Source: Linnemannia hyalina | Lineage: Eukaryota; Mortierellomycota; Mortierellomycetes; Mortierellales; Mortierellaceae | NCBI GenBank assembly: GCA_019671135.1 | Contig: JAHRHY010000026.1 | Location: 496,001-560,000, forward strand | Reading direction: 5' to 3' | Length of the DNA: 64,000 nucleotides | Shown here: in pieces, positions 18,701 to 51,831 of the stretch | Layout: every line of letters begins with the position of its first letter | Position numbering within the stretch: position 1 is the stretch's first letter | The notes under the pieces: generated by a model | What the model was told of the DNA's origin: nothing | What the model saw: the letters and a program-made list of their open reading frames with translations, nothing else | Database searches by the model: none | Made by a program: the position numbers and the translations under genes

Positions 18701-19958
18701 CTCATGGGTATCCTCTTTGATGGTCTCAGTGTTGAGCTCAACAACTTTGCCGAGACCGGATACAAGAACGAGAGCGTGTAAGTTTGATAGAAGGGCTCGC
18801 GTTGTTGATTTCTTACGTATAATCCATAACTGACCTTCGACTTTCTTTTGTTTGTTCGTTAGGCAATGTGTGGGTATGTTGATTTCGGTGGAGAGGACAC
18901 AGAAGGAATTTGCCGAGTCCGACCAGGCATTCTTGATCACCATGTTGACTCAGCTGAGGGCCAAGTTGGTTGGTATGTTTGAGAAGTATGTTGAGGAGCA
19001 GTTCAAGTTCATCGAGGAGGCTCGTAACAAGACCAAGCGCAAGGGCGTCCTCCCCTTCATGCGGATATTCCCCGTAAGTCACACCAATACTTTCTCCTAC
19101 GCTAAGTGTACCTGTTGCTCCCTTACATTTGTCAACGGCGCTAACGAGTTTTTTTCTGCTTCCTTTCTGCAACAAAGAGATTTGCTCAAAGGATGGAGGC
19201 GTTGCTGGAGGGTAATGAAGATACGGAGGCGCGTCAATTGATCACGGCGGCATACGACAAGTTAGTGCGCGTGATGTTCGAGTCGACTGAGGCCGTTGCC
19301 AAGGAAACTGTGGACTTTGACGACAAGGAGCAGGGATCGCATGTGGTCAACATTGAGAACATGCACCATTTCTACTCGGAGCTGCGACAGCGTAAAGTCA
19401 CCAACTTGGAGAACTATATGAAGTATGCCAAGGGCTCGTATGAGAGCCATCTTGCGACTTATGTCCGTGGTGTCGTCCGACGTTCTCTTCTCAAGCTCCT
19501 CGTAAGTTTCTTGGTTATATTGGTTATATTGGAGGAGTTGGTCTGTTGCGGTGATATGATGTAGGGATAGGGAGCTGACCTTGTATGTATTTAATTTGCA
19601 ATTGTAGGACTTTTTTGATGGAGTAGAAGGGCTAGTTAAGGCCAAGACCTCAGAAGACGTGGGCTTCCATTTGACATACAACAAACAGGCCCTCAGAAAA
19701 GTCATCTCACAGTACCCAGCCTCGGTGGTCCGAAAAGACCTCCAGCAGTTGTACCGTAAAGTCGAGAAACATTTCTCGTCCGAAGAAGAGGAGGGCCTGC
19801 TGCAAGTTGCATGGAGAGGCATTCAGGAGGAGTTCATTCGACAGCATGAGAGGTTCTCGAGGTTGATTCGCGAGTGCTATCCAGATGCTGGGGTACAGAT
19901 GGAGTTTTCTATGCAGGAGCTGCTGGGGATCTTTTCAGAGATTGCGAAGAGCCATTAA
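15795..19958 (+). CDS. SEC3: Exocyst complex component Sec3
   Basis: Eleven exons: 15795..15891, 16088..16240, 16352..16464, 16586..16678, 16791..16854, 16953..17980, 18072..18183, 18282..18777, 18863..19073, 19178..19501 and 19608..19958. They give 1013 residues. The N-terminus is the Sec3 PH-type domain that binds PI(4,5)P2 and Rho GTPases (YICMTVKGNGKVRLHKVKK, GRTWHLDEIKSIE, KRWNVII). A disordered linker and the long coiled-coil/helical Sec3 region follow (LEELLYDMELANNEDGVALE, MDNWLFLYRQELDSMGDDI), then C-terminal CATCHR-like helical bundles to IFSEIAKSH. Sec3 marks exocytic sites at the plasma membrane, here presumably hyphal tips. The last part of exon 10, intron 10 and exon 11 are duplicated 3.19 kb downstream. 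All splice phases are consistent. Confidence 0.92.
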
Positions 19959-20248
19959 GGAGGGCGAGGAATGAGAGGAGCTTGAAATGGATACGATTGA
20001 TTGGTTGGCGTTTTCTTTTCTTTGATTATAACTTTTACACGTACATATATACATACCCCTGCGCACGATAGAATAAACGAAAAAGAATGTCGCTTGACCC
20101 AAGCTTTGATTGATAATGGCGCTGGTACCTGAGGCGAGTGGAGAAGAGAAGGAAAGGAACATGTAAAGCCTTGCGGTTCAATCGGCGGAGGCGATGTTGA
20201 TGTTCGACAGTCATGTGTGACATGGCCAGTGCCATTGAAGACGTTCTT

Positions 20249-22307
20249 TTATTGAAAGATGGCGGTGGTAGGGTTGAAGTTCAGCTTGTTTTGCATGTCG
20301 AGAGTCACATCAGCGACAGTGTGGCCAGATGAGGTTGAAAAGCTCGAGGTAGTGGATGCCGTACTGGTGATAGTGGAGAAGGATGCGCTGGCGGTGGCGG
20401 CGTCGGACATTGTTTCGTCAACAGGCTCCTTCTTGATGTCGTCGTGCTTGACCCGCTTCCTCCTCCTCCCATGACCCTCTGATGTCTTGTCCCCGTCTTC
20501 TCGACTGCCGCTACTCTCAGATTCCGGTAAAGAACTCGGTACGGTGTCCGCATCCTTCGACAACAACGGACGGGAAGACTTGTCATCGACCTCCTCGAGT
20601 CCTTGCTTATGTTGTGGCGACGTTTGATGGTACGATTGTGATACCTGCTGATGTTGTTGTGCTGGTTTGTTACGCGCATCCTGTATCGACTTTTTGCGGT
20701 GTTCAGACGCCTGCACGTACTTTCGTTGAGACTCGGTGATCGCCTGCTTGTACTTTTGTTGAGACTCCATCGTCGCCTGCCTGCACTTTCGTTGAAACTC
20801 GTGCCACTCATTTTTGTAATTTCGTTGAGACTTGATCCACGCCTTGTCGTACATTCGTTGAAACTCGGTCCACGACTTGTCGTACCTTCGCTGACAGTCA
20901 ATCCACGCCTTCTCGTACCTTCGTTGAGACTCGATTACCACCATGTCGTACTTTCGTTGAAACTCGATCCACGCCTTCTCGTACTTTCGTTGAGACTCGG
21001 CCCACGCCTTGTCGTACCCTCGATTCCAATTGATCCACTCCTTCTCGTACTGTCGTTGGAACTCGATCCACGCATTCTCGTACCTTCGTTGAGCCTCGGT
21101 CATCGACGGCTCGAACTTTTGTTGAGATTCGTCCATCATCTGCTCGTACATTTGTAAATACTCGAACCTCGCTTGCTCGTACCTTCGTTGGTACTCGATC
21201 CTCGCCGGGTTCGTTAACTGTACGGATAGGTATTGGATATGTTCGTGTGTATACTGCGTATGTGCATATTCGCACTGCATATATATGTCATGGCGTCGAT
21301 GCGAGTCACAAGCAAGGGCAGCAACGACCAGCTTGCGTGCTGCTCTCAGGGTATGCAGCGCTATGTCAAGACTGTCCATCCATGGTTTCAGTTGTGATTC
21401 GCTGCGTTCATTACCCTTGGGGGAAGTCTTTGCGGGACGGTTGTGCGACATCGATGTGCAGATCGTCATGGCTGTTGTTGTTGTCGATAATGGTGTTACT
21501 GGGGGGGTCGATGTCGATGCTGATGCTGAAGCCGATGTTAATGTTGATGTTGGTGGTAGAGGACCCACATACAGCTTTGCGAGACGTTCTTCAATCGAAT
21601 TCTCCTGCTCGTAGTCGGATCGACCTCTTTTCTGATTTGTTGGAGTTGCTGGTATTGGTGGTGATGTTGTTTGTGAGTGTCTCGAAGCGGAGGCTTGGTG
21701 TATCTGGACGGCGCCTATACCTTTGACCAATCTGTCCACCGAGTCCGAGGGAACCTTGGTGCCACTTTTACGAGAATCCTGTTGCTTCTCGTCGTCTCGT
21801 CTGTTGGTCCTAGATAGTTAGAAATGAAGGTAAGCAATGTCAGTATCTGCGGCATAGGAGATAACGAAAAATAAAAATAAAAATAAAAATAAAAAAAGCA
21901 ACAGCGGTAACAACGTTATGATCTATAAATAGCTCAAACCTTGGTGACCGCGTGGAAGCTCGAGGGCGAGGTTCTGTCAACTGGGCGGCTGTCAGTGAAC
22001 GATGTTCCGTAGACCGAGTGACAATCACGGAGCGAAGTTCTGCTGACTGAGAAGCATTTTGAGAACAACGTTCGGCAGTCTGAAGGGCGACTTCTTGTTG
22101 TTGAGGAGAGCGAGGCACCTCGACTGCGAGGGAAGCAAACTCAACCAGAGCGGAAGCTACAGCAGAAGTTGATGAAGACGAAGGTATAGTTCGCGAAGTA
22201 GGAGGAGTGGCGTATGCTTTTGTACTCGGGGTGAGGGTTGTGGTGGTGGTTGATATTGATAATCTAGTAATACGGCGGTCGTTGGTGCTGGCTGGTTGTG
22301 CTGCCAT
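20249..22307 (-). CDS. Gene X copy A: unknown protein with 14 tandem 11-residue repeats
   Basis: Exon 1 is 22307..21940 (MAAQPASTNDRRITRL...) and exon 2 is 21809..20249, 642 residues in total. I do not recognise the family. The first about 300 residues are Ser/Thr/Ala-rich with a conserved KRGRSDYEQENSIEERLAK block. Residues about 360-510 are fourteen 11-residue units of the type Y-(E/D)-K-A-W-I-E-F/S-Q-R-K, likely a long charged helix or coiled coil with hendecad period. The C-terminus has a basic patch (GRRRKRVKH) followed by KKEPVDE, suggesting nuclear import and possibly a SUMO-type site, and ends NKLNFNPTTAIFQ. It is convergent with SEC3 (290 bp between stops). The promoter is a GA-rich plus strand block at 22310-22560. 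The intron contains an (AAAAAT)n run. Confidence 0.72.
20720..21181 (-). repeat. Coding minisatellite, 14 x 33 bp (gene X copy A)
   Basis: Fourteen in-frame 33-bp units fill exactly 462 bp. On the plus strand units resemble TACTTTCGTTGAGACTCG plus a variable 15-mer. Units differ from one another by several substitutions, so the array is not freshly amplified. The matching array in copy B has nine units. Confidence 0.9.
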
Positions 22308-22657
22308 TGTGAAGAAGAGATGGGGGGTGTTTTTTTTTTTGCCTGAAGGGAACTGTGAAGTGTAGGTGGACTGTAAGAGGAGAGGTAAAAGGTAGAGGGG
22401 AAGAGATGTGCGGAAGAAAACAGAGAGAAAAGAAAAAGGAAGGAAAGGAAGTAAAGAAAGAGGAGAAAAGGAGTGCAATAGGAGTGTGGGAAGAACCGAG
22501 GCGAAAAGTCGAAAGGGAGCAAAGGAAGACATGGCCCGGTGCATGCACAGGACCATTCAACGGGAAGAAAAAGGAGAAAATTGACTTGCATTGTGACGTG
22601 AGTCATCCCGTGGGGTTTCGAGGGACGGGAAGGGGGAGAGGCAAAGAGGTAAGGTGT

Positions 22658-23152
22658 ATCCGTGGCGCCTTCCGATGTTCTCTTCTCAAGCCCCTCGTAA
22701 GTTTCTTGGTTATATTGGTTATATTGGAGGAGTGGTCTGTTGCGGTGATATGATGTAGGGATAGGGAGCTGACCTTGTATGTATTTAATTTGCAATTGTA
22801 GGACTTTTTTGATGGAGTAGAAGGGTTAGTTAAGGCCAAGACCTCAGAAGACGTGGGCTTCCATTTGACATACAACAAACAGGCCCTCAGAAAAGTCATC
22901 TCACAGTACCCAGCCTCGGTGGTCCGAAAAGACCTCCAGCAGTTGTACCGTAAAGTCGAGAAACATTTCTCGTCCGAAGAAGAGGAGGGCCTGCTGCAAG
23001 TTGCATGGAGAGGCATTCAGGAGGAGTTCATTCGACAGCATGAGAGGTTCTCGAGGTTGATTCGCGAGTGCTATCCAGATGCTGGGGTACAGATGGAGTT
23101 TTCTATGCAGGAGCTGCTGGGGATCTTTTCAGAGATTGCGAAGAGCCATTAA
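22658..23152 (+). pseudogene. SEC3 3'-end fragment (tail of exon 10, intron 10, exon 11)
   Basis: A promoterless duplicate of the SEC3 terminus. The exon 10 tail carries several substitutions, the GTAAGT donor is kept, and exon 11 (22802..23152) encodes the same C-terminal residues as the true gene, ending at TAA. It has no start codon or upstream SEC3 sequence and cannot make a Sec3 protein alone. Its splice acceptor is intact, so a long-range splice from SEC3 exon 10 to this copy would still give an unchanged C-terminus. Confidence 0.88.
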
Positions 23153-23442
23153 GGAGGGCGAGGAATGAGAGGAGCTTGAAATGGATACGATTGATTGGTT
23201 GGCGTTTTCTTTTCTTTGATTATAACTTTTACACGTACATATATACATACCCCTGCGCACGATAGAATAAACGAAAAAGAATGTCGCTTGACCCAAGCTT
23301 TGATTGATAATGGCGCTGGTACCTGAGGCGAGTGGAGAAGAGAAGGAAAGGAACATGTAAAGCCTTGCGGTTCAATCGGCGGAGGCGATGTTGATGTTCG
23401 ACAGTCATGTGTGACATGGTCAGTGCCATTGAAGACGTTCTT

Positions 23443-25287
23443 TTATTGAAAGATGGCGGTGGTAGGGTTGAAGTTCAGCTTGTTTTGCATGTCGAGAGTT
23501 ACATCAGCGACAATGTGGCCAGACGAGGTTGAAAAGCTCGAGGTAGTGGATGCCGTACTGGTGATAGTGGAGAAGGATGCGCTGGCGGTGGCGGCGTCGG
23601 ACATTGTTTCGTCAACAGGCTCCTTCTTGATGTCGTCGTGCTTGACCCGCTTCCTCCTCCTCCCATGATCCTCTGATGTCTTGTCCCCGTCTTCTCGACT
23701 GCCGCTACTCTCAGATTCCGGTAAAGAACTCGGTACGGTGCCCGCATCCTTCGACAACAACGGATAGGAAAACTTGTCAACGAGCTCCTCGAGTCCTTGC
23801 TTATGTTGTGGCAACGTCTGATGGTGCGATTGCGATAACTGTCGATGTTGTTGTGCTGGTTTGTTACGTGCATCCTGTATCGACTTTTTGCGGTGTTCAG
23901 ACGCCTGCTCGTACTTTTGTTGAGATGCGATCATCGGCTGCTCGTACTTTTGTTGAAACTCGATCCACGCGTTCTCGTACTTTCGTCGAGACTCGAGCCA
24001 CTCCTTTTCGTAATTTCGTCGACACTCGCTCCACGCCTTGTCGTACATTTGTTGAGACTCAATCCACGCCTTCTCGCACTTTTGTTGAGACTTGATCCTC
24101 GCATTGTCGTACTTTCGTTGAAACTCGATCCACTCCTTCTCGTCCTCTCGTGAAGACTCCATCCATTCCTTCTCGTACACTCGTCGATACTCGATCCATG
24201 CCTTCTCGTACATTTGTAGATACTCGATCCTCACCGGGCTCGTTGATTGTGTGGATAGGTATTGCATATCTGCGTACTCGTCCTGCGCATGTGCATATCC
24301 GCACCGCATATATGTGTCATGGCGTCGATGCGACCCAAAGAAGAGGGTATCACCGACTAGCATGTATGCTGCTGTCATGTTATGTAGCGCTATGTCAATC
24401 CTCTCCCCATATTCTTTTAGTTGTGATTGTCTGCGTTCGCTACCCTTGCTGGAGGTCTTTGCGGGACGGTTGTGCGACATCGAGGTGCAGGTTGTCGTGG
24501 TTGTTGTTGTTGATAATGGTGTTACTCCAGGGGTCGACGTCGATGCTGATGCTGAAGCCGATGTTAATGTTGATGTTGGTGGTGGACGACCTACGTACAT
24601 CTTTGCGAGACGTTCTTCAATCGAATTCTCCTGCTCATAGTCGGATCGACCTCTTTTCTGATTTGTTGGTGTTGCTGGTACTGGTGGTGATGTTGTCTGT
24701 GAGTGTCTCGAAACAGAAGGTTGGTGTATCTGGACGGCGCCTATACCTTTGACCAATCTGTCCACCGAGTCTGAGGAAACCTTGGTGCCACTTTTATGAG
24801 AATCTTGTTGCTTCTCGTCGTCTCGTCTGTTGGTCCTAGATAGTTAGAAATGAAGGTAAGCAATGTCAATATCTGCGGCATAGGAGATAACGAAAAACAA
24901 AAATAAAGGCAATAGCGGTACAACGTTATGGTCTATAAATAGCTCAAACCTTGGTGACCGCGTGGAAGCTCGAGGGCGAGGTTCTGTCAACTGGGCGGCT
25001 GTCAGTGAACGATGTTCCGCTGACTGAGAAGAATTTTGAGAACAATGTTCGGCGGTCTGAAGGGCGACTTCTTGTTGTTGAGGGGGGTGAGGCACCTCGA
25101 CTGCGAGGGAAGCAAACGCGTCAACCAGAGTGGGAGCTACAGCAGAAGTTGATGAAGATGATGGTATAGTTTGTGAAGAAGGAGGAGTGGCGTATGCTTT
25201 TGTACTCGGGGTGAGGGTTGTGGTGGTGGTTGATATTGATAATCTAGTAATACGGCGGTCGTTGGTGCTGGCTGGTTGTGCTGCCAT
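23443..25287 (-). CDS. Gene X copy B: unknown protein with 9 tandem 11-residue repeats
   Basis: Exon 1 is 25287..24950 and exon 2 is 24835..23443, 576 residues in total, with both splice junctions as in copy A. The ends are almost identical to copy A (MAAQPASTNDRRITRL, KRGRSDYEQENSIEERLAK, KKEPVDE, NKLNFNPTTAIFQ). The segment just before the repeats and the repeat units differ strongly: for example SQLKEYGERIDIALHNM here against SQLKPWMDSLDIALHTL in copy A. Nine repeat units are present. Both copies keep full open frames and splice sites, so both are probably functional. Function is unknown. Confidence 0.72.
23914..24210 (-). repeat. Coding minisatellite, 9 x 33 bp (gene X copy B)
   Basis: Nine in-frame 33-bp units, 297 bp in total. 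It differs from copy A by exactly five units, with the reading frame retained. Confidence 0.9.
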
Positions 25288-33179: not shown

Positions 33180-33560
33180 TTAATTCCCTCCAGCACGAGC
33201 GAGCTCCTGCTGTGCAAGACGGAGGCGCTCAATCTCCGAGGTCATGCTCATCACACTCGGAGTAGTTGCTGAGGTCGAAGACAAAGACAAAGCGACAGTG
33301 GAGGAAGGATGAAAAGTAGGTGCCATTTGGGCAGCAGCCCCAGCGCGAGCAAGGTCCTGCTGAGCGAGGCGGAGGAGCTCAATCTCCGAGGTCATGCCCG
33401 TCACCCTCGCTGCAGTCGTCGAGGAAGTCGAGGACATGGCGATAGAGGAAGAAGAAAAAAGAGGGGGTGCCACTCTGGTAGCAGAAGCAATAGCCTGCTG
33501 CGCGTGACGAAGTAACTCAATCTCTGAGTTCCTGCTACCGACAGCAGTCGTCGTCATTGT
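33180..33560 (-). repeat. Three degenerate coding repeats (about 138-150 bp)
   Basis: The plus-strand motif CTCAATCTC(C/T)GAG recurs at about 33228, 33378 and 33516, in the same frame each time. It encodes the SEIE-LLR-AQQ helix, with Ser/Thr/Ala-rich linkers of variable length between. Confidence 0.75.
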
Positions 33561-45672: not shown

Positions 45673-48600
45673 ATGGCGCAGAACAACACTCCGCCTCAAT
45701 CACCCCCTGGCCACAGACCTAAACCTTCGGCCTACTACAATGTGGAGCAGGCGGCCAAGGGCAATTTCACCATGACTGCAATGATAGCTAGGACAATTCA
45801 AGGCCATGTTACAACAGGAGTGACTCCGCCAAACCCTTTGAACACATCCAACCCCAGACCTCACACACCGGGACCTGCACACCATAACACATTTATTCAC
45901 TCACCAGCACACTCTCGACAATCGTCGTCTACACACCAACCAGCACATTCATGTGAGCACCAGCCAGCACATTCCCACCATGCAGCATACACGCGTCAAC
46001 CATCATCATTTGAGCACCAAACAACACCTGCACAGCAGCCACCTTGCAAACCCCAGTCGACCTTCAAACCACAAACGGCGTATACACCTCCATCTCCTAC
46101 TGCATCCCTGTCGTCTACTTCGACTCTATCGCCGACCTCATCCCTATCATCTTTATCCAAACCCGAATCACTTACCACCCCCTCGTCGTCGTCGTCGTCT
46201 AGACCCCTGACTCCAACTCCAAGCGGGAGACAACTCTCCAGGGACAAATCACTGCCCAGCATCCCCATCCCACACGACCAACCACCAAAAACAGATCAAC
46301 TGTACCAGGACATATTTGCAGCAAATGTGTCGAGACCATCACCCGACATTCCAATGCCCGGTATAGGCAGCCGTATCGAGAGCACCTCTCAGCTGGCACT
46401 CTGCAAGAGATTGCTCTTGCAAGCTGGAAACCAGGAGCAACAGCGAAGTCTGACGGATGCACAGCGAAAATGGCTGGGGGAGGTAGTGAAGGAGGACATT
46501 GAGCAGCGACATATACACGAGTTGTCGAGCACAGTCTTGGAGGAGTTCATCAACAACAACATCAAAGACTCAACAGCCATCGCCGAAATTTTGCTCATTG
46601 CACCAACGCTGGACGAGGAACACTACCGTGTGTTGCTGAACGGCTTTATCAAGGCGTTTGAGGAAGCCACACTACAGGATACGTTCCTACTCCAAGGTCT
46701 GATCCAGCTTGTCCAATCAGCGACGGACGGTTGCCTTCACCAAGACGACTTGGTCCGAGTCCTGGCGATCCTGAGGCAGCAACTGGAGAACACGCATATT
46801 CAGTCCAGTGAACACCCCTTCCATCTGACCGTCGCTGTCGCTCGTGTGCTCGATGTCATGGCAGAACGCAAGGTCGAGAATCTAGATCGAGTGACGGAGC
46901 GCGAGCCGCTTTTGAAGATCTTGAATGTGGTCCGGGAGAGCCATGACCCTTACCTCCTGTATCAGGCCTCATATGCCTTCCAAGCATTGCAGTACGTCCC
47001 GGACGAGGAAACCGCCCTTCAAGCCGTTCTGCGTCACACCGGCAACGTCGCGGAGGGAGTCATCAAGGTCTCTGGTGTGGTTAAGATAGATCTTAACAAT
47101 CTCTTTGACGGTCTGACTAAACTCCAAAAGACTGTGAGCGAGACATACGATGCGGTGAAGAGTGGTTTCGAAGGCGTGCGCACCTTGGTCCAGGGTGGGC
47201 GAGGTGTCTTCGACTCTCTCAAACAGGGATTGGGGTCTGGCTTCAAACGTCCTTGGTACCCCGCCCTCCGTGCCGCCGATGTTCTGGTCCGTGGCGGTCG
47301 GCTTTACGATTTCAAGAGCCTTGTTCTGGAAGCGCCATGTCGACACGAGCCCGAGTTTCAATGGGGGATCTCTCAGCTGTTGGGAGAGATCGCAATGGAT
47401 CCTTCATGGGACTACCCTGTGCGCCAGCAGTCAGCCACATTTCTGATCTATTTACTCGAATGCGGCAAAAGATGGACCAAGGATGACAGCGTCAGGCTGT
47501 GGATGTTGACGATCCTCCGCCACCTCAGGGACTCGCCAGACAATATAATCATAGGAGAAGCTCGCGGCAGGTTGAAGGACTTACTCATTGTCAAGGACGA
47601 CGTGCTCTACGACTCTTTTCCACTGGTCGACACTTTGCCTGAATCCACTTCATCACCTCTTCTCGATCGCGTCCAGCCCACTGCAGCCGTCGAGCGTGAC
47701 CTGGCCAACCTGAAACGAATTCAGACAGAGGACTACAATGGAGGGATTTACATCTCACCTAATGCCAAGGCCAACTTGCTGGAAAAGGATCGACTGTCCT
47801 TCCCGTTGATGCCGAAGGTTAGGCGGTTCTTGAAGAGCAAGCAACACGTCTTTTTATTGCTCGGCGACTCGGGAGCCGGCAAGTCAATGTTCAATCGACA
47901 TCTGGAGTATGAGCTATGGGGGAGCTACACGAAGGGCGGCAGGATACCACTGCACATCAACTTGCCCGCCATTGACCGACCCGATCAGGATTTGATCGCC
48001 AAGCAACTCGGTATTCATGGCTTCAAGTACGAACAAATCATGGAGATGAAGCAGAACCGTGAGTTTGCGGTGATTTGCGATGGCTATGACGAGAGCCAAC
48101 TCCAAGCCAACCTGTACGGATCCAACCAGTTCAATCGACCGCTTCAGTGGAAGGTCAAGATGATCATAAGCTGCAGGAGCACCTACCTCAGTCAAGATTA
48201 CCGAGGGCGTTTCGAGCCGGTGTCGTCTGACAAGTATGCCCCTCTCCCTGGCCTCTTTCAGGAAGCTGTCATCGTCCCATTTTCGAGCGACCAGATCACA
48301 GAGTATGTCGGCAAGTTTGTGCACCTCAAGGACACCCGCAATTTGTTCATTGACCAACGAGTATGGGATGTGGAGGAGTACATGGGCAAGCTTCGGAGCA
48401 TTCCCAACATGATGGAGCTGGTCAAAAACCCATTTCTGCTGGTGTTGTCCTTGAAGTCACTCCCATCCGTCTATAACGACTTCCCCGAGGTTACCAAGTT
48501 CAAGGCAACCCGTGTAATGCTCTACGACGGTTTCATCGACCAGTGGATCCAGGTCAACCAGAGACGATTCCAGAGTGTTTTTCACTTGTACTCTTCCGAG

Positions 48601-51600
48601 GTTCAGGCTGAGTACGAGGAACTCGCCAGCGAGGGCTTTGCAGAGGCTGTGAAGAGCTACTCCAAGAATCTGGCGGCACATATCGTCACAAAGAACGGCA
48701 ACAACCCCCTTGTACAATTTGGGAAAAAGGACAAAGGAACCTGGAAGGAGGGATTTTTTGGACGCGACATAAGGAGCAAGATTCTCCGCGAGGCCAGCCC
48801 GGTGACACGTGTAGGCAATCAATATCGGTTTATTCACCGGTCGCTGGTCGAGTATTTTTACTCCCTCGCTGTCAGCGACGAATCCGATCTTGCAGACTCC
48901 AACGCCGAGCCCACCAGTCCTGTCGAGCGTGCCGTTTCCGACTCCACCGTCAACAAAGCCCTGGCGACTTTCGGGGACGATGATAATGTCGACTCTGGAG
49001 TAATATCGCCAGCAAGGGTCTCTTCTCCTGTAGGTGCTCCTTCTCCAACCAGGACGCCACCGCCAACCAGGGCGCCAAGTCCAATCTGTGCTCCATACCC
49101 GGCAAGGACGCCTTCTCCGGTCGATGCCCCAGCTCCAGTCAGCAGCACGGAATTAGCAGACACTCATGCTCGTGTCGACACTCCAGACTCAGTGGAGAGC
49201 TCTTCCAGTCTCCTTTTCGAGGCTCGATCCTTAGCAAGAGCTCCTTCCACAGTCCGAGACTCGGTTCCAAGCAGGCCGACATCACTCCCACCCCAGAGTC
49301 TTTCTCCGACTAGGATCCCTCCTCTCCCAGCTCCAGCCTTGACAGTACTTTCAAGACCACTCAGGAAACTATCTTTGGGTCTGCCCAACCCATCGCTTCA
49401 GAAAGTCCTTGTCAAGGATCCGTCCACCCTTCAATTCTTGGCTGAGCGTGTCCAACAAAACGAAGCCTTGAAACAGCGATTTTTTGCATCCATTGAGCGC
49501 TCAAAGTCGGACTCCAGTGCTGCCGTCGATGCCGCCAATGCCATCACCATCCTAGTCCGAGCGGGAGAGCGGTTCAACGGGTTCGATCTGTCCGGAGCCC
49601 GCATTCCCGGAGCCGATCTGTCTGGAGGAGATTTTGATTCGGTCCAACTGGCAGGAGCAGACTTGACTGGTGCGACGCTCACGAGGGCCTGGTTTAGACA
49701 TGCCAACTTCATGGGCGCCCAGATGAGGGATGTGCAGTTTGGTGAGTGGCCATTTCTCCAGATGAAGGTTGAGGTCAACACTTGTGCCTATTCGCCAGAT
49801 GGCCAGCTGCTTGCCGTTGGGTTTAGCGGAGGCGCCATCACTCTATTCAGCACCGAGACCTGGTTACGAGTGCGTGATCTTGTAGGCCATAACTGGACCG
49901 TCACCTACCTGTCGTTCTCTCCAAACAACGAACAGCTCGTTTCCGCAAGCGAGGACAAGTCGGTCAAGCTATGGAATGTCAAGACGGGTGTCCTCGAAAA
50001 GACGATAGCTGACCAGTCCGAGACGGTCGCATGTGTAGCCTACTCCCCCGACGGCACCCAGGTTGCCGCTGCCAGCCATGACTCTTTTGTCCGCGTGTAC
50101 GATCTTGCCACGGTTAATGTCGTACTGAAGCTAAAAGGACATCTCGGTGCTGTCAAGAGCGTCACGTATTCACCAAGCGGAGATCTCATGGCCACTGCAA
50201 GTTACGATTGGACCGTGCGGTTGTGGGACCCTAAGACAGGACTTCAGACGCATGTTATGTGGGGACACTCGGCATGGGTCACCAGTGTCTCGATCTCCCC
50301 TGTCAATAGCCTTGTTGCCTCGAGTGGACAGGACATGACTGTGCGATTGTGGAACGGTACGAATGGCATGCCTCTCTACATTCTGAAGGGGCACACTGCG
50401 TTTGTCAAGAAGGTCTCCTTTTCTCCAAGCGGTCACCAACTCGCGTCTGCCAGTGGGGACCATACTGTCCGCCTTTGGGATGGCTTGACAGGGACCCCCG
50501 GACCTGTTCTTAGTGGCCATACGAAGTCGGTTGTGACTCTGTCCTATTCCCCCGACAAGGGCAAGGCCCAGATTGCCACAGGAAGCTGGGATTCGACTGT
50601 TCGTCTGTGGGATACCAGTGCCAGCGCCCTTTTGAGCGAGCAGTGTCCATCCATCGGCAGCGTCGAAAATGTGTCTCAGTCGCCGCCCAACGACCTCAAC
50701 CGGACCCTGAACGGAGGCCATTCATCATCATCAAGTTTGGACACGAGACTCGAATTTTCAACCGCGACTGGCATAAACTCGAGCGACCATACATTCAGTT
50801 TCTCGTCGGTGGCATGTTCGTCGGACGGTCAACTGGTCGCCACGTGTAGCATCGATCTGGTCCGTCTTTACAATGCCAACACTGGTGCTTCCACTGCCGA
50901 CCTGCGCGGTCATAGCAACTCTGTTACCAGCATAGCCTTTTCGCACGACAGCATGTACATCGTCTCTGGCAGCTACGACAAAACGGCCCGGATCTGGAAT
51001 GTTCAGACAGGAGAGGGGGGACACACGCTAGGTGGACACACTGATGCTGTTACCTCAGTTGCCTTTTCTCCGACGGGGGCTCATATCGCGACTGGAAGTG
51101 ACGACCGCTCGGTGATGGTGTGGTCCGCCCGAACTGGCAAGGTCTGCTATATCCTTCCTGGCCACGCCGGGGTTGTCAAGACCTTGATCTATTCACCCAA
51201 CAAGCAGCAGATCCACTTGGCCTCTGGAAGCGATGACAACTACATCAAGCTCTGGCATGCACGCGATGGTCGATTTGACCGCGACCTGAGAGGGCATGGC
51301 AACGCTGTCGAGTCGGTATCGTTTACGTGTGACGGCAAGATCCTAGCTTCAGGAAGTCGAGATGGAACCGCGAGAATTTGGGACGTTACTTCTGGCCAGA
51401 CCACACACGAACTGACGGGTGCCACAGGACACAAGAGCGCTGTCACCGCCATTGCCTTTTCTCCCAACAACCTCCGTGTAGCGACTGGAAGCTGGGACAA
51501 GACGGTCAAGATCTGGGATGTGCAAACTGGAGCGTGTCTGGTCACGGTGGAGGAGTTTGTCGGGGAGGTGAACAGCATTGCATGGAAACCTCTGTTCCCA

Positions 51601-51831
51601 ACAGACAATGGCAGTATGTACTTTGTCACTGGATGCGCAGACAAGTCGGTCAGGATGTGGAAGCTGGTGGAGCATAGTGACGGGTCCTGCAAGGTGCAAT
51701 TGTATTGGAGGTCTGCTTTTGATGGATTCATGGTCAAGTTAGCCAATGTCCAGGGGGTTGTTGGGCTAAGCAACAACAATGAGAGGCTGCTGGATCAGAG
51801 AGGTACCATTGGCGAGCCTCGATGGCGCTAG
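45673..51831 (+). CDS. NLR-like STAND protein: helical region - NACHT - pentapeptide - 14 WD40
   Basis: One uninterrupted exon of 2052 residues. Residues 1-200 are Ser/Thr/Pro/His-rich and disordered (HQPAHS-type units). Residues about 200-700 are alpha-helical, probably ARM/HEAT-like. A NACHT-type NTPase follows: Walker A GDSGAGKS at 731-738, Walker B FAVICDGYDES at about 798-807, sensor region MIISCRSTYLS at about 830, and the winged-helix end IHRSLVEYFYSLAV near 1055. A Ser/Pro/Ala linker leads to pentapeptide repeats (FNGFDLSGARIPGADLSGGD..., about 1298-1365) and fourteen WD40 blades (about 1367-1998) in two sets of seven split by a Ser-rich insert near 1650-1700. STAND proteins of this kind oligomerise on ligand sensing and mediate programmed cell death or immunity in animals, plants and fungi (HET-E/NWD types). 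The ligand and effector output here are unknown; no HET, HeLo or other known death domain is visible at the N-terminus. Confidence 0.9.
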   Translation: MAQNNTPPQSPPGHRPKPSAYYNVEQAAKGNFTMTAMIARTIQGHVTTGVTPPNPLNTSNPRPHTPGPAHHNTFIHSPAHSRQSSSTHQPAHSCEHQPAHSHHAAYTRQPSSFEHQTTPAQQPPCKPQSTFKPQTAYTPPSPTASLSSTSTLSPTSSLSSLSKPESLTTPSSSSSSRPLTPTPSGRQLSRDKSLPSIPIPHDQPPKTDQLYQDIFAANVSRPSPDIPMPGIGSRIESTSQLALCKRLLLQAGNQEQQRSLTDAQRKWLGEVVKEDIEQRHIHELSSTVLEEFINNNIKDSTAIAEILLIAPTLDEEHYRVLLNGFIKAFEEATLQDTFLLQGLIQLVQSATDGCLHQDDLVRVLAILRQQLENTHIQSSEHPFHLTVAVARVLDVMAERKVENLDRVTEREPLLKILNVVRESHDPYLLYQASYAFQALQYVPDEETALQAVLRHTGNVAEGVIKVSGVVKIDLNNLFDGLTKLQKTVSETYDAVKSGFEGVRTLVQGGRGVFDSLKQGLGSGFKRPWYPALRAADVLVRGGRLYDFKSLVLEAPCRHEPEFQWGISQLLGEIAMDPSWDYPVRQQSATFLIYLLECGKRWTKDDSVRLWMLTILRHLRDSPDNIIIGEARGRLKDLLIVKDDVLYDSFPLVDTLPESTSSPLLDRVQPTAAVERDLANLKRIQTEDYNGGIYISPNAKANLLEKDRLSFPLMPKVRRFLKSKQHVFLLLGDSGAGKSMFNRHLEYELWGSYTKGGRIPLHINLPAIDRPDQDLIAKQLGIHGFKYEQIMEMKQNREFAVICDGYDESQLQANLYGSNQFNRPLQWKVKMIISCRSTYLSQDYRGRFEPVSSDKYAPLPGLFQEAVIVPFSSDQITEYVGKFVHLKDTRNLFIDQRVWDVEEYMGKLRSIPNMMELVKNPFLLVLSLKSLPSVYNDFPEVTKFKATRVMLYDGFIDQWIQVNQRRFQSVFHLYSSEVQAEYEELASEGFAEAVKSYSKNLAAHIVTKNGNNPLVQFGKKDKGTWKEGFFGRDIRSKILREASPVTRVGNQYRFIHRSLVEYFYSLAVSDESDLADSNAEPTSPVERAVSDSTVNKALATFGDDDNVDSGVISPARVSSPVGAPSPTRTPPPTRAPSPICAPYPARTPSPVDAPAPVSSTELADTHARVDTPDSVESSSSLLFEARSLARAPSTVRDSVPSRPTSLPPQSLSPTRIPPLPAPALTVLSRPLRKLSLGLPNPSLQKVLVKDPSTLQFLAERVQQNEALKQRFFASIERSKSDSSAAVDAANAITILVRAGERFNGFDLSGARIPGADLSGGDFDSVQLAGADLTGATLTRAWFRHANFMGAQMRDVQFGEWPFLQMKVEVNTCAYSPDGQLLAVGFSGGAITLFSTETWLRVRDLVGHNWTVTYLSFSPNNEQLVSASEDKSVKLWNVKTGVLEKTIADQSETVACVAYSPDGTQVAAASHDSFVRVYDLATVNVVLKLKGHLGAVKSVTYSPSGDLMATASYDWTVRLWDPKTGLQTHVMWGHSAWVTSVSISPVNSLVASSGQDMTVRLWNGTNGMPLYILKGHTAFVKKVSFSPSGHQLASASGDHTVRLWDGLTGTPGPVLSGHTKSVVTLSYSPDKGKAQIATGSWDSTVRLWDTSASALLSEQCPSIGSVENVSQSPPNDLNRTLNGGHSSSSSLDTRLEFSTATGINSSDHTFSFSSVACSSDGQLVATCSIDLVRLYNANTGASTADLRGHSNSVTSIAFSHDSMYIVSGSYDKTARIWNVQTGEGGHTLGGHTDAVTSVAFSPTGAHIATGSDDRSVMVWSARTGKVCYILPGHAGVVKTLIYSPNKQQIHLASGSDDNYIKLWHARDGRFDRDLRGHGNAVESVSFTCDGKILASGSRDGTARIWDVTSGQTTHELTGATGHKSAVTAIAFSPNNLRVATGSWDKTVKIWDVQTGACLVTVEEFVGEVNSIAWKPLFPTDNGSMYFVTGCADKSVRMWKLVEHSDGSCKVQLYWRSAFDGFMVKLANVQGVVGLSNNNERLLDQRGTIGEPRWR

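Follow-up and report, generated by a model that had tools for sequence, protein, structure and literature searches.

Near-identical ends and a diverged centre in a tandem gene pair of Linnemannia hyalina, probably shaped by gene conversion

Introduction

Selection against gene conversion makes divergence peak between duplicated genes, and the red and green opsin genes are the example given in PMC3924837, which also describes the work of Teshima and Innan (2008) on the peak of divergence under gene conversion. Here we describe a pair of tandem gene copies, henceforth gene X copies A and B (X_A and X_B), in a 64,000-nucleotide stretch of the Linnemannia hyalina genome (contig JAHRHY010000026.1, positions 496,001 to 560,000; henceforth the window, in whose numbering all positions are given). 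Like the human red and green opsin genes as that source presents them, the X copies are adjacent duplicates with homogenised flanks and a strongly diverged middle. They differ in that the peak covers several hundred bases including a repeat array, and in that selection is not demonstrated for X. Two marks of a divergence peak are found at this locus: silent divergence is heterogeneous along the duplicated unit, with long identical tracts, and the paralogs are nearer to each other than to their orthologs in the C-terminal tract but not in the peak, the latter on few sites. The gene X pair, in a gene so far unstudied, is a textbook instance of the 'peak of divergence', and the explanation that we favour, at a probability of roughly 0.7, is an old tandem duplication whose ends were homogenised by gene conversion, with the centre spared.

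Two further systems invite comparison. The hnwd genes het-d, het-e and het-r of Podospora (PMC2873952) are likewise fungal paralogs with a varying repeat array. According to the same text, however, HNWD proteins belong to the STAND class (signal transduction ATPases with numerous domains) and carry extremely polymorphic WD repeats by which recognition is controlled, whereas the X units are 11-residue helical repeats, and neither a NACHT/NB-ARC domain nor WD repeats matched X_A or X_B above the Pfam cut-off. Spider MaSp silk genes (PMC9779670) resemble X in that they encode repeat proteins, lie in clusters and bear evidence of conversion between genes; the proteins are unrelated. A literature search on Linnemannia and Mortierella, which used neither gene name nor accession, turned up no paper on gene X, and one for gene conversion in Linnemannia returned a match on mitochondrial genomes, judged by its title.

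Results

Two copies with near-identical ends and a diverged centre

The two copies lie in a tandem duplication whose unit of about 3.1 kb comprises the tail of SEC3, a spacer, gene X and the gene X 5' flank; self-BLAST and alignment place the start of unit A at 19464 and that of unit B at about 22657. Gene X is on the minus strand, convergent to the plus-strand SEC3 gene, which ends at 19958. X_A (20249-22307, 642 residues) consists of exon 1 (22307-21940), an intron and exon 2 (21809-20249), and X_B (23443-25287, 576 residues) of exon 1 (25287-24950), an intron and exon 2 (24835-23443). This two-exon model is open in both copies, and the interval 20249-25287 runs from the X_A stop codon through the X_B start codon. 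The 642-residue protein is identical to L. hyalina KI688_007747 (P0001). Copy B is represented among the protein-search matches solely by a 311-residue piece (P0006), in searches for which proteins far from the query length were not candidates.

The first-pass annotation, made from the letters of the window, had pointed to near-identical ends and a strongly diverged centre, and the alignment of the units bears this out. The longest run of identity extends over 593 bases of coding and non-coding DNA (19633-20225, paired with 22827-23419). DNA differences between A and B amount to 13/335 in exon 1, which also has small indels, 5/114 in the intron and 29/395 in the N-terminal part of exon 2; they rise to 52/222 in the block preceding the repeats and 60/314 in the repeats. 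At the protein level, the copies differ at 9/111 positions in exon 1, 12/132 in the exon 2 N part, 34/72 (47%) in the pre-repeat block, 42/107 (39%) in the repeats, 9/56 in the C-flank and 2/97 at the C-terminus. The earlier estimate that roughly half the positions differ thus fits the pre-repeat block and slightly overstates the difference in the repeats. Divergence is maximal in the pre-repeat block (minus strand; about residues 256-326 of X_A, 21200-21412; partner in X_B, 24229-24441), whose DNA alignment is ungapped, which rules out a compensated frameshift as the source of its differences. The adjoining repeat arrays, also on the minus strand, hold 15 units of 11 residues in X_A (20705-21199) and 10 in X_B (23899-24228).

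Silent divergence is uneven along the unit

Synonymous divergence (dS) varies along the gene as well, from 0.02-0.03 at the C-terminus to 0.13-0.21 in the centre. By the Nei-Gojobori method, dS and non-synonymous divergence (dN) are 0.067 and 0.039 in exon 1, 0.190 and 0.051 in the exon 2 N part, 0.211 and 0.308 in the pre-repeat block, 0.158 and 0.209 in the repeats, 0.118 and 0.080 in the C-flank, and 0.030 and 0.009 at the C-terminus. We extended the comparison to all silent sites, that is, non-coding and fourfold sites, with the SEC3 part counted as silent although it is coding in copy A. Tract by tract, and with the poorly aligned sites beyond 22630 dropped, silent differences number 5/34 at the extreme left edge, 4/798 in 19498-20546, 17/115 in 20547-21779, 10/249 in 21780-22370, 21/126 in 22371-22496 and 2/134 in 22497-22630; with the sites beyond 22630 included, there are 76 differences at 1486 sites. 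By these counts, an old divergence of about 0.15 survives at the left edge, in the middle and across some of the 5' flank, and the tracts in between are younger. The 593-base stretch forms the core of the recently homogenised tract at about 19498-20546. A second tract (minus strand, 21780-22370), which covers the start of exon 2, the intron, exon 1 and 5' flank, would be older or partly homogenised, judging by its silent divergence.

When silent sites were permuted, an identity run as long as that observed was reached in 0 of 10000 permutations, a result independent of where tract borders are drawn. The contrast does not hinge on SEC3: with the SEC3 part omitted entirely (53 differences at 962 sites, longest run 267), the longest run and the run-length statistic were each reached in 0/10000 permutations, and 19959-20546 still has 3/338 silent differences against 17/115 in the centre (p = 1.6e-8). 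The spacer alone has a single difference at 290 silent sites, and with the first tract removed the run-length statistic was reached in 9/10000 permutations. These permutations support a mosaic of tracts; the borders themselves were drawn post hoc.

Relationships of the copies differ between C-terminus and centre

Protein searches, which in some cases scored only those candidates, roughly 7990, that had the most words in common with the query, returned as relatives of gene X three L. elongata proteins (P0002-P0004), one from Mortierella hygrophila (P0007), P0005 and the window copies only. No third copy came to light in the fungus itself: among the best candidates scored in its own genome (51,506,068 bases in 50 contigs), none was found at the protein or DNA level with SEC3-tail DNA, X_A, an L. 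elongata protein and the X_B centre as queries. At the protein level, which is the scope of this comparison, a second gene X copy was not seen among the L. elongata, M. hygrophila and P0005 proteins.

At the C-terminus, A and B differ at 2/97 positions, each differs from M. hygrophila at 17/97, and A differs from P0002 at 30/86. The centre behaves otherwise. In the pre-repeat block and the repeats, A differs from M. hygrophila at 19/40 and 47/105 positions and from P0002 at 23/53 and 45/79, and B at 21/40 and 52/95, and at 30/53 and 42/73, respectively. Centre differences for A-B, A-M. hygrophila and A-P0002 therefore all fall within 39%-57%, and B is somewhat farther from the relatives. In the pre-repeat core, the copies are about equally far from M. 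hygrophila (A 15/35, B 17/35), whereas B is farther than A from L. elongata (24/41 versus 17/41). The ratio of centre to C-terminus differences is about 1.2 to 2.6 between species (A-P0002, centre 0.43-0.57 against C-terminus 0.35; A-M. hygrophila, 0.45-0.47 against 0.18) and about 20 between A and B; much of the A/B contrast thus comes from the ends having become alike.

Informative sites, taken over A, B, M. hygrophila and P0002, agree. Those grouping A with B number 7 versus 0 for other groupings at the C-terminus, 2 versus 3 in the C-flank, 1 versus 3 in the pre-repeat core and 2 versus 4 in the repeats, so that A+B is favoured by 7/7 sites at the C-terminus and 3/10 in the centre (Fisher p = 0.0098, C-flank left out). 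Of the homogenised tracts, this ortholog comparison covered the C-terminal one alone.

The relatives share with X_A and X_B the C-terminal core KR.K.D.IK.EP.D (invariant in 7 rows) and the 11-residue repeats. The L. elongata proteins and P0005 are unlike the L. hyalina copies in their unit numbers and in an extra domain of about 90 residues that precedes the repeats. Neither L. hyalina copy has this domain, nor does the M. hygrophila protein as annotated, so its loss probably preceded the duplication; both L. hyalina copies also carry a segment missing from L. elongata. Two oddities of annotation were seen in the relatives. The stretch GPGEDRVSTN of P0007 corresponds, by eye, to what the L. 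hyalina copies encode in their other frame where the repeats begin, either by an annotation fault or by a compensated frameshift, and the P0003 C-terminus is apparently annotated in another frame.

Evolution of the protein centre

The middle left undisturbed extends beyond the amino-acid peak: silent differences in the exon 2 N part (10/70) are as frequent as in the centre, and its protein is little changed (12/132). Because the exon 2 N part would be equally unconverted, the amino-acid peak needs weaker constraint or selection in addition. Weaker constraint, which has slightly less than an even chance and is compatible with the conversion explanation as an account of the centre's protein divergence, would mean that the rod tolerates nearly any helical sequence and drifts at a near-neutral rate, with mismatches and length differences stopping conversion. 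Consistent with this, family members have anywhere between about one and fifteen repeat units (those of the relatives counted by eye), the annotated M. hygrophila protein seems by eye to run partly in another frame here, and the ratio omega of non-synonymous to synonymous rates in the pre-repeat block, estimated under the GY94 codon model, is not significantly above 1 (1.90, p = 0.106). By contrast, point estimates of omega in the centre exceed 1 by every method used, and several repeat positions are conserved (Y7 in 21/25 units, E2 in 20/25, Q4 in 18/25, and R or Q at position 5 in 25/25).

Diversifying selection as the main cause, with a recent duplication, rods driven apart and conversion minor, we consider unlikely, although parts of the evidence lean that way. 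Nine regions were fitted under GY94, with uncorrected p values and a centre region picked after the fact. The centre (codons 256-489) gave omega 1.87 (likelihood-ratio test, p = 0.027), against 0.33 in the exon 2 N part (p = 0.003) at similar dS (0.155 and 0.163); all flanks together gave 0.56 (p = 0.026) and the whole gene 1.11 (p = 0.55). Synonymous and non-synonymous counts, rounded, differ between the exon 2 N part and the pre-repeat block (Fisher p = 0.0008), and at codons with a single change the ratio is 1.52 for the centre, as against 0.17 for the exon 2 N part. Among the 25 repeat units compared with their consensus, 125.5 changes are non-synonymous and 15.5 synonymous, a non-synonymous excess (binomial p = 0.008 at a transition/transversion ratio kappa of 1, the joint p becoming smaller at higher kappa).

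Several of these results weaken on closer inspection. The repeats alone gave omega 1.84 (p = 0.132), so that neither centre block is significant singly, and the Nei-Gojobori bootstrap of dN minus dS spans zero in both. Repeat units share ancestry, F and S types tending to alternate, and unit counts are not independent; the binomial test gives p = 0.027 for A alone and p = 0.21 for B alone, and with each distinct change counted once, 8 of the 18 synonymous changes that are possible occur, against 49 of 71 non-synonymous ones (p = 0.06). Moreover, dS also varies along the gene, an effect that selection on protein does not produce. Within L. elongata, P0002 and P0004 show a centre (5/56 and 2/79) that has changed no faster than their other blocks have (19/168, 6/56 and 8/86), and the centres of P0002 and P0003 do not differ at all (0/56 and 0/79); these protein comparisons weigh against a standing arms race. 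The elevated evolution of the centre is possibly adaptive, and its omega is suggestive of diversifying selection, short of proof. In the repeat units, codon position 2 takes more of the changes than either other position (67 of 141), which the alternating unit types may explain; dual coding, considered on account of this excess, is ruled out by at least one stop per array in all five other frames.

Repeats and predicted fold of protein X

The repeat period is 33 bp (Tandem Repeats Finder) and the unit consensus IESQRKYEKAW. This period and both models predicted for the family agree with a hendecad, an 11-residue periodic helix: the single-chain models of X_A and L. elongata P0003 (mean predicted local distance difference test scores, 50.5 and 57.4, with low-confidence ends) have a long helix through the repeats, at 359-515 and 314-472, respectively. 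No Pfam family scored above the cut-off in either copy, the best match below it being MHB in X_A (E = 0.1) and none in X_B. No known fold or solved relative emerged: a PDB sequence search yielded SYCE3 alone, at chance level (E = 0.5), and Foldseek returned nothing for the X_A model at E <= 0.001, with only vimentin at E = 9.4.

The C-terminal 97 residues of X_A (20249-20542, minus strand) include the basic stretch RRRKRVKHDDIKKEP, in which K574, R575, K577, D579, I581, K582, E584, P585 and D587 are invariant in the 7-row alignment. We take this stretch to resemble a nuclear-localisation signal with a SUMO consensus after it. The X N-terminus, MAAQPASTNDRR, has no hydrophobic stretch by eye; no signal-peptide predictor was run. 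From models and motifs, we infer that the product is likely to be a fast-evolving nuclear rod protein with a long hendecad helix between disordered ends, and that the X_A and X_B rods likely differ in length and surface. A role in recognition, allorecognition or as an effector, which the first-pass annotation thought typical of such a pattern, finds no independent support: no Pfam family passes the cut-off, there are two copies only, and the L. elongata centre is no faster in two pairwise comparisons among three proteins.

Other features of the window

The true SEC3 gene, with Pfam matches to Sec3_CC and Sec3_C-term, contributes its 3' end (two exons and an intron, Sec3_C-term matching in both exons) to the left edge of unit A (19464-19958, plus strand; boundary from self-BLAST and alignment). 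Unit B begins with an orphan SEC3 tail (22657-23152, plus strand) without a SEC3 body upstream. What had been described as a SEC3-derived part of gene X therefore belongs to the neighbouring convergent gene. Some 20 kb from gene X, and with no evident link to it, a single plus-strand open frame of 2052 codons (45673-51831) matches ARM-like and many WD40 repeats and has, by eye, a P-loop and pentapeptide-like repeats, as in an NLR-like (nucleotide-binding, leucine-rich repeat receptor-like) protein. An imperfect tandem duplication (33190-33535; shift of about 150 bp, 71.6% identity) lies within a minus-strand open frame of 580 residues.

Discussion

The first-pass annotation had offered gene conversion of the ends, diversifying selection on the middle and replacement of the middle from a third paralog as possible causes. 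Conversion is the one best supported, because silent divergence is uneven and the C-terminus and centre show different relationships; selection is suggested by the centre omega and the repeat-unit excess and not established, relaxed constraint and repeat turnover remaining as accounts; the third paralog fares poorly. The pattern named there as contrary, dN/dS below 1 in the centre with uniform dS, is not the one found, as dS is uneven and the centre's point estimate of dN/dS is above 1.

We propose a tandem duplication of the segment with the SEC3 tail and gene X, dating from around the separation of L. hyalina and M. hygrophila, after which ectopic gene conversion between the two direct repeats would have overwritten parts of them. 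The most recent overwriting would cover about 19498-20546 (SEC3 tail, spacer and X C-terminus), and probably earlier events about 21780-22370 and 22497-22630. The stretch between, with the X centre and the better conserved exon 2 N part, would not have been overwritten and would retain its original divergence. Its centre may have been kept apart by selection against conversion, or by mismatches and length differences that block it. The alignments themselves show the mosaic of silent divergence and the grouping of A with B at the C-terminus and not in the centre; conversion as the process, the age of the duplication and the cause keeping the centre apart are what we infer from them, and unequal exchange would look alike.

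Several points weigh against this account. Centre dS is based on only about 18 synonymous differences, and the tract borders were chosen after the data were seen. The high silent divergence of the exon 2 N part, in a little-changed protein, separates the silent from the amino-acid pattern. Informative sites are few, the repeat alignment is not truly positional and the C-flank is mixed (2/5), and M. hygrophila and L. elongata were compared as protein only, which limits the comparison of dS. The nuclear role draws on motif resemblance and low-confidence models. Finally, the duplication might instead postdate the species split, both centres then having accelerated strongly and the C-terminus having been converted late; such a course is difficult to dismiss.

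As for what might hold the copies apart, one improbable but specific idea is that X_A and X_B are self-sorting nuclear rods (or a partner pair) of Mortierellaceae, kept apart by selection because they must not pair; specificity would then reside in array length and surface, and conversion through the centre would be deleterious. That one copy's centre was swapped in from a third paralog or by introgression is more doubtful still. Such a swap would yield a block of old divergence between young ends, and X_B is indeed the farther copy from L. elongata in the pre-repeat core. However, no third copy appeared among the best genomic candidates, A and B are about equidistant from M. hygrophila in core and repeats, and neither copy has the roughly 90-residue domain of L. 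elongata, both carrying instead a shared segment that L. elongata lacks. An assembly artefact or an unusual mutator (repeat-induced point mutation, RIP, or retroelement-directed mutagenesis) is scarcely credible: near-identical tandem tracts are a known assembly hazard, but the strain SCG-10 genome was assembled from PacBio data with HGAP4 (52 contigs, 51,558,230 bp; PMC8444964) and the copies differ in sequence and outer borders, while mixed transitions and transversions in the centre (28/23 and 26/30) rule out RIP or any one-directional mutator.

The gene X pair of this early-diverging fungus is a clear example from nature of ends that evolve in concert around centres that evolve independently. 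It also points to a fast-evolving rod protein, with matches here limited to Mortierellaceae and P0005. If selection on the centre proves true, the pair would provide a handle on why the fungus retains two different rods.

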